Below, one piece after another: positions 5,827 through 35,784 of a stretch of 64,000 nt of DNA; the first letter of the stretch is position 1; each line of letters starts with the position of its first letter. The position numbers and the translations under genes were made by a program. This stretch comes from Planctomycetaceae bacterium (GTDB lineage Bacteria > Planctomycetota > Planctomycetia > Pirellulales > UBA1268): assembly GCA_011523305.1 (NCBI GenBank), contig WTHB01000147.1, positions 1 to 64,000 on the forward strand, in the 5' to 3' direction. The notes beneath the pieces are model-generated. The model ran no database searches. It worked only from the letters and a program-made list of their open reading frames with translations, and was not told the origin of the DNA.

Positions 5827-6004
5827 CAGCAGTGGCCCCTGAGGGGAATCCGAACAGAAAGATTCACGCAGGAACAACCATACCGCAGTCGGCATCTGAC
5901 TGGCTATCCGGCTCCACAGACAGGCTCCCGGTGACGGCGACCGGTCGAGGCTGCCCGACGCTCCAGGCGTCGTCACTGAGAACCGACAGCGCCAGCCACC
6001 TGGC

Positions 6005-8722
6005 TCAGGCTGCAGGCAGGTCGGCCACGATGATCGCGCCCCAGACAAGGGGGTCGGTCTCGCTCTGATAGAAAAGTTCAGCTGGCGCATCGGCCGCAAT
6101 CTCCCAGACGATCGTGCCAGCCTCCGCACCTCCGCCGCTGACGCCGATGGTGTAGGCAGCCGCGGCGTCATAGCCGCCGGAGGTCGTCTGCAAATGCAAC
6201 GGCTGCCCGGGGGCATCGACTGCAAAGGTGAAGGTGGTGCCTCGGTAGACCGTCAGTGTCGGGTTGAGGCTTCCGAGAATGGCGTAGTCACCAGACTCCA
6301 CCGTCACTGCAACGGCATGGTGACTACCCCGACCGAGACGATCGAGCGCACCTGAACTGGGCCCCGACAGCGAGTCAAAACTGAGCGCCCGCAGCGAGTG
6401 AAACAGGCTGGTGATCGCCCATGTTTCATCCGCAAGGACGCGGGCCTCACTGCCTCGCCTGACCCGCAGATAGTTTCCCTGGGCTGTTGCTTCCGCACCC
6501 ACGGCCTGCCAGCCGGCAAGGCTCACCTCTGCGTGCTCACCATTCAAACGCACAGGTGTCATCTCCACATAGAGCCGACCAGCGGCATCCTTGGCCAGCG
6601 GCGACTCACCCTGGTCAGGCAGCACCTGCAACACCGTCACCGCAAAGGCCTCGGTGGCAACGCTGTTGTCCTCTGGTGTGGTGAGATCACCATCGAGCCC
6701 TCCGCTGGTCAGGGTGACTGAAATCACAGCCGTGCCCGGCTGCGTGGCACCGGGCGTGAAGGTCAGGCTGCCCGTCTCACCCGATGCGGTGTAACTCACC
6801 GCCGGCGTGGGCACCACTGCTGTGTCGCTACTGACGGCGGTCACTTGAACAGCCTGCACTCCGCCGCCCACGGGCGGACTTCCGGCCAGAATGCCCGTCA
6901 GCGCGACCACCTGTTCCGTCCCGTCCCCGAGCACCAGCAGGTCAGCGATCGGGTCAACCGCAGGTGGTTCGTAGGTTTCCGAGATGACCAGCCGCAGCGT
7001 TTCATCCGGAAATTCCTGGAAATACCCTGGGGTTCGCGACTCGCGGGCGGTCACCTCGAGCCACTCCTCCCCCTCGACCCGGTCGTCACCGACAATCGTG
7101 ATGTCGACGTAGGCAGTAACTTGGTCAACTGCAAAGACCACCTGCGCTGGGTACGGATCGCTGAGCAGGACATCCTGGTACCAAGCGGGACTTTCTGACT
7201 GATAGCCCCAGTACAAGTCAGTCGCGAACTCCCAGTCGAGAAAGACCGTCGCCTCGCTTCCGACAAAGCCGTCATACCGGGTGAGGGCAAGCCGCTTGAC
7301 CACGGTGCCCGTCTGCGGCTCAGCCACCACGTTCCCATCTTCAAAAGCCATCCGCAGCGACGGGGTCTTCCAGGTCTGTTCGGTATCGAACGGCCCCATG
7401 TCGAGCACCAGTTGGCCCTCGGCCGGCGCTGCCGTCGCCCCAGTTTCTGCCCCATGAATATGAATGGCTGCCTGCTCATCAAGCCAGGTAAACCCAGGGT
7501 CACCATCGGCATCGACTACCTGCACGTAGGACATCACCGTTGTGTTGGTATCGATGTCGGCGTTCACGTCGCCGTCGTCTGGTTCATGCGAGTGCTCAAA
7601 TCCGATCGCATGGCCGAGTTCGTGGTAGGCAACCGACTTCCAGCCCGCCTCGTCTGAATCTCCAAAGCGAATCGAATGGCTTGTGGCACTCAGGGCCAAG
7701 TCCAGTCGGGCTTCGGACGTCCGTTCGACCCGGCCGTCGTCCCAGATGGTGGCGGAGGGCCCGATGTAAACGCCCGCTGACCCAGACGAGGTCGACTGGG
7801 TCGACAGTTGATAGATCGTCAGTTGCGAGAGGCTGCTGCTGGCTGGCACGACTGCAAACTCAGGTTCGATAATCGCATCCACGTCAGCCAGCACCTCAAG
7901 CCACCACTGCTCCAACGTCGGCGTAATCGAGGAGTCAAAGGAGACGTAGATCACCCCACCGTCGCTGTGGAGAAAGCCAGCCCTGAGTTGGGTCTCGGTG
8001 AGGGCTGACCCTTCGGCCACAATCACATCCCGCATGCTCACCAGACTGGCGATCGTGTCAGTCGCGCCGCTCACAACGGTTTCGGTGCTGCCCTGCCCAT
8101 CGGTGTGGGCCGCTGCAACCGTGACTGCCGTGCCGACCTCTGCCGCTGTCAGGGCGTAGGTCTCGCTGGTTGCAGACTCAATCGGTACGCCGCCAGCAAA
8201 CCACTGCCAGTTGACGCCCCCGAAGCCGTCAAGGTCGACCAGCGTGTGTGATGCTGTCAGCGTCGCCCCCTCGATCGGCACGCCAGTGATGCCCACACTG
8301 CCGACGGGGGCAGCGTTGCGAACCTCAATCGTAAACGCCATCTCCACCGCCGCGCCAGCGGCGTCAGTCGACTGCACGCGAATCTGGCGACTCCCCTGAC
8401 CCTCATGATCAAAGGAAACCGCTGTCTGCAACTGGCTGCCTTCGAGGACGAAAGCCGCGTTATCGGCATCGCCCTCTCCTGCCACGAGCGCGTAGCTGAA
8501 TACATCACCCGCATCGGGATCGACGGTACTGAACTCGCCCACCACCGTGCCGGCGGGCTCGTGTTCGCTGACGAACGCAGCCGACAGAACAACGTCCGTC
8601 GGCGCTGCATTGAAGGCGAGCCGCGGTTCCAACTGCTCAAGCCAAAGCGAGCGGGAAGACCGAACCGTTCGTCGAGAGCGTGGGCCACGCATCATTCCAT
8701 TCCTTGCGGCAGAACGCCTCAT
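6005..8722 (-). CDS. Large secreted planctomycete LEPR-type surface protein with cadherin-like, M10 metzincin, Calx-beta-like and C-terminal cupredoxin-like regions
   Basis: N-terminal LEQLEPRLAFNA motif; HELGHAIGFEHS (HExxHxxGxxH) and Met-turn VMSY; Calx-beta-like VDITIVGDDRVEGEEWLEV. Confidence 0.8.
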   Translation of the reverse strand: MRRSAARNGMMRGPRSRRTVRSSRSLWLEQLEPRLAFNAAPTDVVLSAAFVSEHEPAGTVVGEFSTVDPDAGDVFSYALVAGEGDADNAAFVLEGSQLQTAVSFDHEGQGSRQIRVQSTDAAGAAVEMAFTIEVRNAAPVGSVGITGVPIEGATLTASHTLVDLDGFGGVNWQWFAGGVPIESATSETYALTAAEVGTAVTVAAAHTDGQGSTETVVSGATDTIASLVSMRDVIVAEGSALTETQLRAGFLHSDGGVIYVSFDSSITPTLEQWWLEVLADVDAIIEPEFAVVPASSSLSQLTIYQLSTQSTSSGSAGVYIGPSATIWDDGRVERTSEARLDLALSATSHSIRFGDSDEAGWKSVAYHELGHAIGFEHSHEPDDGDVNADIDTNTTVMSYVQVVDADGDPGFTWLDEQAAIHIHGAETGATAAPAEGQLVLDMGPFDTEQTWKTPSLRMAFEDGNVVAEPQTGTVVKRLALTRYDGFVGSEATVFLDWEFATDLYWGYQSESPAWYQDVLLSDPYPAQVVFAVDQVTAYVDITIVGDDRVEGEEWLEVTARESRTPGYFQEFPDETLRLVISETYEPPAVDPIADLLVLGDGTEQVVALTGILAGSPPVGGGVQAVQVTAVSSDTAVVPTPAVSYTASGETGSLTFTPGATQPGTAVISVTLTSGGLDGDLTTPEDNSVATEAFAVTVLQVLPDQGESPLAKDAAGRLYVEMTPVRLNGEHAEVSLAGWQAVGAEATAQGNYLRVRRGSEARVLADETWAITSLFHSLRALSFDSLSGPSSGALDRLGRGSHHAVAVTVESGDYAILGSLNPTLTVYRGTTFTFAVDAPGQPLHLQTTSGGYDAAAAYTIGVSGGGAEAGTIVWEIAADAPAELFYQSETDPLVWGAIIVADLPAA

Positions 8723-31764: not shown

Positions 31765-32199
31765 ATGCTCTGCCGCCTTATTTACCGCAGCACGGTTGTT
31801 CCACCGTTTGACTTTGACGACCTCCGGTCGATCCTGGCTGCGAGCGAACGCAATAACCCTCCGCAGGGCATCACCGGCGTCCTGATGACGGCTTCCATGC
31901 AATTTTTGCAGGTCATGGAGGGCCCCAGCGACAACATCAACGAACTCTACCGGACCCTCCAACGGGACACCGGGCATGAACACCTCCGTCTGGTCGAATT
32001 CACTGCCATCCAGCAGCGGCTATTTGATGGCTGGGCCATGCGTGGCGTTCACCGGCGGCTGATGAGTGATGAGCTGACCACTTTCCTTACCAAGAAGTAC
32101 GGCTCCGATGAATCGGGACACCTTACCCTTCCCAGCACTGCCTTCCTGGCAACGAGCCTCCTTTTTGATGTTGCCAACACCGACATCATCGGCACCTAA
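31765..32199 (+). CDS. Short BLUF-domain blue-light photoreceptor (PixD-like)
   Basis: LIYRS, ILAASERNNPPQGITGVLM, FLQVMEG, LFDGWAM; flavin-site residues Y7, N31, Q49, W90, M92 preserved. Confidence 0.92.
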   Translation: MLCRLIYRSTVVPPFDFDDLRSILAASERNNPPQGITGVLMTASMQFLQVMEGPSDNINELYRTLQRDTGHEHLRLVEFTAIQQRLFDGWAMRGVHRRLMSDELTTFLTKKYGSDESGHLTLPSTAFLATSLLFDVANTDIIGT

Positions 32200-32221: not shown

Positions 32222-33001
32222 TTAGGTTGGCTGCTCGGTCGGACGCATTAGAATGTCGTGGACCTGCACATGCGGCGGGCATGACAGCATGTAGACGACT
32301 GCCTCGGCTACGTCAGCAGCCTCCAGCACCTTGAAGCGGGAGTAAATCTCCTGTGCCTGGTCCTCTGATTTCATGTAGTGGGCAGCAAAGCCGGTCTCAA
32401 CAAACCCCGGGCAGATTTCTCCCACACGAATCGGGTCGCTGGCCTCGCGGAGTTCCATCCGCAGTGATTCAGTCAGTGCCCGCACCGCATGCTTTGTCGC
32501 CGCATACAGTCCTGCCCCCGCCGGCACCCGCTGCCCCGCCATTGAGCCGATGTGAATGATCTGCCCTCGCCCCCCTCGGGCCCGCATGTCAGCCAGCGCC
32601 TCCCGCGTACAGATACAAAGCCCGAGCACGTTGACCTCAAGCATTTCCTGCCACTCGGCCACCGTGCCCTCGGCGAGTAACGCAGCATGGCCGAGGCCCG
32701 CGTTGTTGATCAGAACATCGACCCCACCAAACCGCTCCCGAGCCGCCGCAAACGCAGCCTGCACAGATTCTTCATCGCGGACATCACACCGAACCGCCAG
32801 TGACTGCTCGCCAAGTGGATCACTCGCAGCCAGCACCTCAGTCACCCGGTCCCGCCGGCGGGCACAGGCCACCACCCGCATGCCCTCGGCGAGTAAGCGA
32901 CTGACAATCGCAGCCCCGATGCCACTGCTGGCACCGGTGACCAGAGCCGTCTGTCCGCTCCACTGCTGCACTCCATGGTCCGTCGAGGAAACTGTCGTCA
33001 T
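32222..33001 (-). CDS. Classical SDR family oxidoreductase
   Basis: TGASSGIG, NNAGLG, IGSMAGQRVPAGAGLYAATKHAV (YxxxK), ICPGFVET. Confidence 0.93.
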   Translation of the reverse strand: MTTVSSTDHGVQQWSGQTALVTGASSGIGAAIVSRLLAEGMRVVACARRRDRVTEVLAASDPLGEQSLAVRCDVRDEESVQAAFAAARERFGGVDVLINNAGLGHAALLAEGTVAEWQEMLEVNVLGLCICTREALADMRARGGRGQIIHIGSMAGQRVPAGAGLYAATKHAVRALTESLRMELREASDPIRVGEICPGFVETGFAAHYMKSEDQAQEIYSRFKVLEAADVAEAVVYMLSCPPHVQVHDILMRPTEQPT

Positions 33002-33036
33002 GCCTGCTCTTCTTCCTGTGTGCTATCGTGTCCTCA

Positions 33037-33111: not shown

Positions 33112-35784
33112 ATGCATTCACCAGCAGCTTCCTCGTCACCCGAGAGCGAGCAGACCATTTTTGTGACCGGGGCCACCGGCTACGTCGGCGGCCGGCTTGT
33201 CCCCGCCCTGCTTGAAGCAGGCTTCCGTGTTCGCTGCCTCGTCCGGGAACCCCGCAAACTCGACGCCCGGCCGTGGCGGCAGCACCCCCACCTGGAAGTC
33301 GTGGCAGCCGACCTCGAGGATCGTGAAGCAGTCACCAGAGGGCTCACTGGCTGCGCTGCGGCCTACTATTTGGTTCACTCCATGGTGGCCACTGGCGGAA
33401 CCTATGCCGACCGTGACCGCGAACTCGCCCGGAGTTTCGCGAATGCTGCCCGGGCTGCCAGCCTGCCCCGCATCATCTACCTCGGCGGCCTCGGTGAGAT
33501 GGGGGCTGATTTGAGTGAACATCTCCGGTCCCGTCGCCAGGTTGAAGAAGAACTGGCCTCATCCGGGGTGCCGGTGACGACCTTTCGCGCGGCGATGATC
33601 ATCGGCTCAGGCTCGGCCTCCTTCGAGATTCTCCGCTACCTCGTCGAGCGTCTGCCGATCATGGTGACTCCCAAATGGGTTGCCACCGAATGCCAGCCGG
33701 TCGCGATCGCCGACGTGCTCCACTGGCTGGTCCGCTGCCTGAGCGTGCCGGAGACGACTGGGAAGACGCTCGAAATTGGTGGGGCCGACGCCCTGGTCTA
33801 TCGCGACCTGATGCAGGTGATGGCTGAAGAACTCGGCCTCCGGCAACGCATCATCATGCCGGTACCGGTCCTGACACCCCGGTTGAGTTCCCTTTGGATT
33901 AATCTCGTTACGCCCGTCTCGTACCGAATTGCCCGCCCCCTCGCAGAAGGCCTAAAAAATCGAGTCGTGGTTACCGACGGCACCACCCAGAAGCTCATGC
34001 CACACCAACCACTCGGAGCACGTGAAGCAATTCATCGCGCGCTTACCAAGATCGAACAGCATGCCGTTGAGACGCGGTGGAGCGTGGCTGGCCCCGTACC
34101 AGGCGATCCTTCATGGGCCGGTGGGACGGTCTTCAAGGACCAACGGACGGTCGACATCGAAGCGAGTCCAGCGAATGTTTATGCCGCAGTCTGCCGCATC
34201 GGTGGTGGCAATGGCTGGTACGCCGGTGATGTTCTCTGGCGGCTCCGAGGATGGCTTGACACGCTTGCCGGCGGCCCTGGATTGCGTCGCGGCAGACGCC
34301 ATCCGGAACAGGTCGAATTTGGCGAGACGCTCGATTTCTGGCGGGTGGTCGGAATTGACCGTGATCGTGCCCTTTCTCTTCGAGCCGAGATGAAGTTGCC
34401 GGGCGAGGCACAGCTTGATTTCCAAATTGAACCGATTGCCACCGAACGAAAGCCACCACTCACGCGGCTCGTGATGACCGCCCGTTTTCGTCCCCGTGGA
34501 CTTGCTGGGCTTCTCTACTGGTATGCCGTCGTGCCTCTTCATGAGGTGGTTTTTGGGGGCATGCTGCGGGGCATTCGCAAAACAGCTGAGATTCTTCATC
34601 GCGCAGGGGCAGTCACCCCCGGACCATCCTCTGCTGAAAAAGAACTTCCCGGCTACGGACGAGCTCGGCTCTGGCTTGGCATCAGTGGCGTTGGCAGTCT
34701 CGTCACCCTCTCAACAGCAGGTCTCATCCTCCAGCTCCCGCAGCGACTTCTTCCCGCCACGGAAAACACGCTCGGGCAGGAGGCCATGATCCTCGCCAGC
34801 TTCTTCGCCGCCTACGCCCTCTTCCACGTGCCGTTTGACTACTTTGGTGGCTATCTTTTGCCGCGTCTTTATCGCCGCCAACACCCTTCACGAACAGCGT
34901 TTTTCCTCAGCATGGCTCGTGGCGCAGGCATCCACGCCGCTCTCCTGTGGGGCATAGGCATCTGTCTGCTCGCAGCGGCTCGGACTGCTGGCGTTGTCGG
35001 CGTCATTGCAGCAACGGCCGGGATCACCCTCATGCTGCTCCGCACGAGAATCACTCTGGCCCGAGCAATCGCTCATCTGGAACTCACTCCGAGTTCACCT
35101 ATTCTTCAAGAAAGCCCCGACCTACCGAACCTCCCGACGTACATAGCAGAGACAAAGGACGAAGGCTTCACGGGGGCAGTGTCTGGCGTCCTCTCTCCAC
35201 GAATTCAAATAATTCCCATTCGCTGGCAGGAGATCCTCGACAACACTGCTCTTTCGGTGGCGGTGCAACGAAGACAGATGGCCATTCAAACTGGCAGCTG
35301 GTGGCGAGGCCGCGTTCTCGCCATATTGTTTTCGTTGACGGGAACTGCTTGTGTCGCAAATCTCATCGGAGCCACTCGGCTCGCAACCGCTGAGGGCATT
35401 ATTACCCTCAGTCTCGGCTTCACGATCTGGTCATTCCTGGGTCTCTTGACCCTCCCAACGGTAAGCCGCCGTGGGGTCGCCGAGGTTGATCAAGCGCTTC
35501 TGAAAACCGGCTGCGGCCGTGAAACCCTGGAACGCACGATCGAATCGCTCGACCTCTTACAAGACCGCGAACGACAACGGCTGCCGGTGATCGAAACAAT
35601 CTTCCACCCGATACCAAGCGTTGAGTCGCGTCTGCGGGGTCCTCATGCGACTGGCATCAAGGGCACCTGGGACGCTGCCCGAACAACCGTATTCCTCAGC
35701 GCTGCCGGCCTCAGCCTGCTCGGAAGGGCCGTCCACTGCAATTGCGGAAGACCGGCGTTGTGGGTTTTTCTTCCGATTGACTGA
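33112..35784 (+). CDS. Fusion: NmrA/YbjT-like NAD(P)-binding domain + DUF2867 + C-terminal membrane region resembling a degenerate M48 peptidase
   Basis: IFVTGATGYVGGRLVPALLEAGFRVRCLVR; DUF2867-like VDIEASPANVYAAVCRIGGGNGWYAGDVLWRLRGWLD; C-terminal multi-TM region ending SRRGVAEVDQALLKTG...FHPIPSVESRLR. Confidence 0.8.
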   Translation: MHSPAASSSPESEQTIFVTGATGYVGGRLVPALLEAGFRVRCLVREPRKLDARPWRQHPHLEVVAADLEDREAVTRGLTGCAAAYYLVHSMVATGGTYADRDRELARSFANAARAASLPRIIYLGGLGEMGADLSEHLRSRRQVEEELASSGVPVTTFRAAMIIGSGSASFEILRYLVERLPIMVTPKWVATECQPVAIADVLHWLVRCLSVPETTGKTLEIGGADALVYRDLMQVMAEELGLRQRIIMPVPVLTPRLSSLWINLVTPVSYRIARPLAEGLKNRVVVTDGTTQKLMPHQPLGAREAIHRALTKIEQHAVETRWSVAGPVPGDPSWAGGTVFKDQRTVDIEASPANVYAAVCRIGGGNGWYAGDVLWRLRGWLDTLAGGPGLRRGRRHPEQVEFGETLDFWRVVGIDRDRALSLRAEMKLPGEAQLDFQIEPIATERKPPLTRLVMTARFRPRGLAGLLYWYAVVPLHEVVFGGMLRGIRKTAEILHRAGAVTPGPSSAEKELPGYGRARLWLGISGVGSLVTLSTAGLILQLPQRLLPATENTLGQEAMILASFFAAYALFHVPFDYFGGYLLPRLYRRQHPSRTAFFLSMARGAGIHAALLWGIGICLLAAARTAGVVGVIAATAGITLMLLRTRITLARAIAHLELTPSSPILQESPDLPNLPTYIAETKDEGFTGAVSGVLSPRIQIIPIRWQEILDNTALSVAVQRRQMAIQTGSWWRGRVLAILFSLTGTACVANLIGATRLATAEGIITLSLGFTIWSFLGLLTLPTVSRRGVAEVDQALLKTGCGRETLERTIESLDLLQDRERQRLPVIETIFHPIPSVESRLRGPHATGIKGTWDAARTTVFLSAAGLSLLGRAVHCNCGRPALWVFLPID

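Follow-up and report, generated by a model that had tools for sequence, protein, structure and literature searches.

A predicted M48 pseudopeptidase with a Ste24-like fold, fused to an NmrA-DUF2867 protein in Planctomycetota

Computational analysis of a fusion gene from a Planctomycetaceae bacterium showed that its C-terminal membrane domain is a diverged homologue of the M48A peptidase Ste24, with a predicted Ste24 fold, which has lost the zinc-binding and catalytic residues of that family, is conserved across bacterial phyla and either is fused to, or mostly occurs in the same genomes as, an NmrA-DUF2867 protein. If this is correct it represents a widespread, conserved M48 pseudopeptidase family, for which a search of the literature on M48 pseudopeptidases found neither such a family nor anything bearing on its function, and for which no NCBIfam family model matches among 70 members. 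It would also mean that the scaffold of an intramembrane protease can find a new use once its metal site is lost, and would give the NmrA-DUF2867 proteins a partner that can be tested, a literature search for DUF2867 having found nothing bearing on the function of these.

The fusion gene and its membrane domain

The window (the whole stretch of DNA analysed, 64,000 nucleotides) carries the fusion gene on its forward strand as a single open frame (33112..35784). A sequence-only reading of the window had described this frame, which is real and intact with no in-frame stops, as encoding 891 amino acids, but it encodes 890 residues and a stop; an in-frame GTG lies upstream of its start, at 33028. 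The NmrA and DUF2867 domains expected at its N-terminus were recovered by Pfam, with an NAD(P)-binding NmrA/NAD_binding_10 domain carrying a GATGYVGG motif at residues 13-163 (33148..33600, forward strand; PF13460, E = 1.3e-16, and PF05368, E = 7.9e-15) and DUF2867 at residues 335-484 (34114..34563, forward strand; PF11066, E = 9.9e-35). PF11066 also matches in E. coli, and the predicted order of strands and helices in DUF2867 may resemble that of a helix-grip/START-like fold. An AlphaFold model of the full-length protein had a pTM of 0.53, too poor for the arrangement of the domains to be read from it, and matched NDUFA9-like and other NAD(P) Rossmann structures (probability 1.00). Complex I NDUFA9-like structures are among the best fold matches of the Rossmann part (33148-34100 of the window) and, separately, CIA30, the domain of a complex I assembly factor, is encoded near family members at two loci (L081 and L086).

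The core of the membrane domain, as delimited by HHalign and Foldseek, covers residues of about 507-845 (34630..35646, forward strand). The M48-like stretches that had been picked out by eye in this region are all present and in the order given, so that the M48 order stood while the extent proposed for the region did not, the domain starting near residue 507-514, being approximately 380 amino acids long and continuing past the end of the M48 match (column 338 of 382 in the profile) into a conserved, family-specific C-terminal extension of approximately 45 residues, which includes GRAVHCN (residues 846-890; 35647..35781, forward strand; LLGRAVHCNCGRP..W.FLPID).

That the region is related to M48 was confirmed by several comparisons. 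HHalign, comparing 81 sequences of the family with 14 of M48A, gave a probability of 98.5 across 336 columns, at P = 2.6e-15 as against 0.2-0.4 for reversed-profile controls. A profile mixing M48 types (HtpX-like and others) gave a much weaker match (P = 0.0012), and the relation is therefore to M48A. Of 23 close homologues, 22 were matched by PF16491 (M48_N) at E ≤ 1, the lowest E being 5.7e-9, and the curated cut-off of this model, 27 bits, was passed by several members (for example L130, at 40.3 bits), while the window protein itself matched below this cut-off (residues 545-642, E = 0.006, 17 bits). The family profile also picked up genuine HExxH-bearing planctomycete M48 proteins, so relatives that bear HExxH do exist (L116-L129). 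Searching PDB sequences directly with a profile returned weak Ste24 matches (E = 0.034), making comparison of structures and profiles necessary. The check that the sequence-only reading had proposed, AlphaFold followed by Foldseek, gave a model of the membrane domain with a pLDDT of 92.5 and a pTM of 0.91, for which the 12 best matches in the PDB were all Ste24/ZMPSTE24 (including 2ypt, 4aw6 and 4il3; probability 1.00, TM about 0.6). No match outside Ste24/ZMPSTE24 exceeded a probability of 0.66, and the likeness to BepA (M48) and BlaR1 (M56) was distant (0.5-0.66) and far weaker than that to Ste24. An unrelated membrane fold resembling M48 through a chance order of patterns, as might be argued from the marginal M48_N match of the window sequence alone and from PF01435 being reached by just 3 of 70 members, is very improbable, because the N- and C-terminal halves each match M48 on their own and in the corresponding order (P = 8.6e-10 and 2e-8, reversed controls giving 0.2-0.3) and Ste24 alone is matched at high confidence by Foldseek.

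Loss of the zinc site

The HExxH motif of M48 falls upon RRQMA (residues 720-724; 35269..35283, forward strand) in HMMER, HHalign and joint MAFFT alignments, the last including HExxH-bearing planctomycete M48 proteins, as the sequence-only reading had supposed. The HE pair is Arg-Arg (R720 and R721) in 81 of 81 homologues, the second histidine is mostly alanine across the same 81 sequences, and HExxH was absent from every family member examined. The counterpart of the M48 "SR..E...D" segment had also been recognised correctly; it is SRRGVAEVD (residues 785-793; 35464..35490, forward strand), in which the glutamate that is the third zinc ligand is replaced by valine in 73 of 81 homologues (V789 here) and retained in none, while D793 is kept in all 81 and the Ser-Arg of the segment, near to the lost ligand, is retained in the family. 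The segment likened to "HP....R" does correspond to it, being FHPIPSVESR (residues 831-840; 35602..35631, forward strand) against FHSHPPI..R of M48, but the invariant H832 aligns with the first histidine of FHSHPP and is not the HP histidine, which aligns with I834. At that position histidine is replaced by valine or isoleucine in 81 of 81 homologues, with the proline kept in 79 and the arginine (R840) in all 81.

As every zinc ligand and the catalytic glutamate have been lost across the 81 homologues, M48-type peptidase activity is very unlikely, and the description of the domain as catalytically dead appears sound: judged from these alignments, the M48-type zinc activity has almost certainly gone and the domain is a predicted pseudopeptidase. 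In common with the CAAX prenyl protease 1 enzymes Ste24p and ZMPSTE24 (M48A), it has the fold over nearly its whole length, the M48_N membrane helices, the SR...D segment and the proline and arginine of HP....R; unlike them, it has RR..A in place of HExxH, valine in place of the zinc-binding glutamate, valine or isoleucine in place of the HP histidine and the GRAVHCN extension, and in planctomycetes it is fused to NmrA-DUF2867.

Many polar residues are invariant in the family (R519, R720, R721, D793, E820, R823, H832, R840, R857, R872, H875, C876 and N877). LGRAVHCN and PGYGRARLW served as search patterns for collecting part of the loci and so the conservation of these two motifs is overstated; R720, R721, D793, H832 and R840 lie outside both patterns.

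The family, its partner and its neighbours

Homologues of the C-terminal 384 residues were found in 26 of the 59 genomes searched (counting that of the window) and about 100 family loci were collected altogether, in which gene calls are simple ORF picks and not annotations. A search for the same three-part architecture, suggested by the earlier reading, found NmrA, DUF2867 and pseudo-M48 together in dozens of genomes or loci, and the membrane domain also as a standalone protein. The standalone form occurs in Cyanobacteriota/Melainabacteria, Deinococcota (Trueperaceae), Actinomycetota, Acidobacteriota, Chloroflexota, Gemmatimonadota, Krumholzibacteriota and some Planctomycetota, whereas the fusion was seen in Planctomycetota only; the inactive domain is thus present in at least seven bacterial phyla, the taxon labels, read from record titles, carrying the usual doubt because most of the records are metagenome-assembled. 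This is apparently a pseudoprotease family conserved across phyla and without a name. In a phylogenetic tree a fully supported branch divides it from active M48 proteins, fused and standalone forms cluster and the fused state requires at least two changes; possibly the fusion arose once in Planctomycetota. Pairs of close relatives gave dN/dS values of 0.11-0.26 for the membrane domain, indicating purifying selection, and it is therefore not a decaying remnant. Among individual loci, the cultivated Lacipirellula limnantheis I41 (L076, NZ_CP036339.1) carries a fused gene, one contig region (L047:1917-4586 and 5920-8589, the same region as in G031) carries two near-identical tandem copies of the entire fusion gene, and in two draft genomes the gene is split or frame-shifted (L024/L030 in G004 and L027/L031 in G033), by assembly error or because it is disabled.

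NmrA-DUF2867 is present as a protein of its own, generally of about 500 amino acids, in 25 of the 27 genomes with a standalone domain (a DUF2867 match being missing in the other 2), compared to a background of 73 of 294 genomes (25%) sampled from the window's phylum (Fisher P of about 1e-12, ignoring kinship and with the phyla partly differing between the two sets). Identity between such copies and the N-terminal half of the fusion is 44-65%, and NmrA/YbjT-type DUF2867 proteins of about 500 amino acids match its N-terminal 500 residues without having a membrane pseudopeptidase. The fusion together with the co-occurrence suggests that NmrA-DUF2867 and the pseudopeptidase work together and, since DUF2867 also occurs without it, the pseudopeptidase looks like an accessory of NmrA-DUF2867. 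One genome has a DUF2867 match in a 944 amino acid frame (G326:C1:1508150-1508593) with no pseudo-M48 detected in that genome, which may be another fusion or merely a long frame. In Melainabacteria (L204:7571-12401 and L205:7692-12492, and also L193 and L203) what appear from their sequences to be molybdenum hydroxylase-like (xanthine dehydrogenase-type) genes come after the separate NmrA-DUF2867 gene.

About 1.1 kb upstream of the fusion gene in the window lies a BLUF blue-light sensor domain (31768..32040, forward strand; PF04940, E = 3.4e-25), the sole BLUF found in the genome, and divergent from the fusion gene is an SDR gene (32222..33001, reverse strand; PF00106, E = 6.9e-56), close homologues of which were found in five related loci (L032, L034, L040, L043 and L053), again upstream of the fusion gene. 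A standalone copy from Phycisphaerales (L067) has BLUF and folE directly upstream, the L069 locus has rhodopsin, beta-carotene dioxygenase and lycopene cyclase genes nearby, and other family loci have photolyase, B12-binding MerR, CIA30, fasciclin, FAD amine oxidase or DUF2071 neighbours. Photolyase (PF03441, with a density of about 0.45 per Mb in the genomes studied) was found in the flanks of three family loci compared to 0.36 expected (P = 0.006), and within about 2 kb of three separate NmrA-DUF2867 genes (in G385, G387 and G374; P of about 1e-5). Separate DUF2867 genes also lie beside B12-MerR and fasciclin genes (L188 and L201, fasciclin being judged from sequence). In most loci (for example those of Thermoleophilia and Trueperaceae) no light gene was recognised at a distance of up to about 6 kb from the pseudopeptidase, and so the link to light is a trend and not a rule. 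Where such neighbours occur, the gene company resembles that of the LitR/CarH (B12-MerR) regulon, in which, as described in part of an account of Pseudomonas, light induces photolyase, ufaM and, more weakly, folE, the clusters concerned containing SDR and FAD oxidoreductase genes as well (PMC9758184). The likeness in our loci (photolyase, SDR, FAD oxidoreductase, folE and B12-MerR) is one of gene company alone and extends to a minority of them and, unlike them, the Pseudomonas regulon has no M48-like gene named in that part of the account (PMC9758184).

Two other types of neighbouring frame were noted. Near to one standalone member (L083:1908-4382), a photolyase-like N-terminal domain and a flavin amine oxidase domain share a frame, and in 17 loci (for example L087:4174-4446 and L063:3954-4229) an ORF of approximately 90 amino acids with the pattern WPDLAIGLYDRLTGRNAEI.Y.F..M.V..P and no Pfam match lies near fused and standalone members. 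The small WPDLAIGLYDRLTGR ORF was considered as an obligatory partner and rejected, there being no convincing match to it in the window's own genome.

Possible function

We tentatively favour a reading in which the pseudopeptidase chamber and NmrA-DUF2867 would form a membrane device for a redox module acting in light or photo-oxidative stress. The old substrate chamber would have been rebuilt around the invariant R720-R721, D793, H832 and R840 and the GRAVHCN extension, and may bind a membrane-borne ligand, for which our guesses are a lipid, quinone, isoprenoid or stressed membrane protein. The NmrA-DUF2867 module might then sense the bound ligand or reduce it with NAD(P)H, the redox chemistry also being a guess, and these steps would serve the response to light or photo-oxidative stress. 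The stronger formulation, that in a cross-phylum family a Ste24 chamber whose zinc site was swapped for an invariant arginine pair became a new ligand-binding or catalytic membrane device, which together with an NAD(P)H module serves bacterial photo-oxidative defence, is doubtful. A dead Ste24 fold can keep a function, as there is the precedent of ZMPSTE24-E336A, in which IFITM3 binding and protection from viral entry are retained (PMC9601121).

That same independence of ZMPSTE24 function from catalysis (PMC9601121) would also fit a pure scaffold or regulator, with client membrane proteins bound by the pseudopeptidase, a further membrane protease or a photoprotective complex under its control, and NmrA as a nicotinamide-cofactor redox sensor. 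Such roles are typical of metallopeptidase pseudoenzymes, according to a review from which M48 is absent (PMC11266112), and yet we consider this somewhat unlikely. One form of it, in which the domain would act as a decoy for a Ste24 paralogue of its own cell, is itself unlikely because the genomes sampled from the window's family yielded no canonical Ste24; PF16491 matches there were weak (40 bits or less) and fell in long fusion-type frames except for two shorter ones (in G004 and G358). Other M48 proteins are present in these genomes.

The number of invariant polar residues is unusually high for a scaffold, which would favour a new enzyme with arginine, aspartate, histidine and cysteine forming a new active site within the Ste24 fold. 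This is unlikely, as we know of no enzyme with the Ste24 fold and such a site, and the invariance of GRAVHCN is due in part to the search patterns. Lastly, the C-terminal position of the membrane domain and its multiple helices would suit a mere anchor holding NmrA-DUF2867 at the membrane, but this fits badly and is quite improbable because the inner motifs, needless for an anchor, stay invariant across phyla even in the standalone protein.
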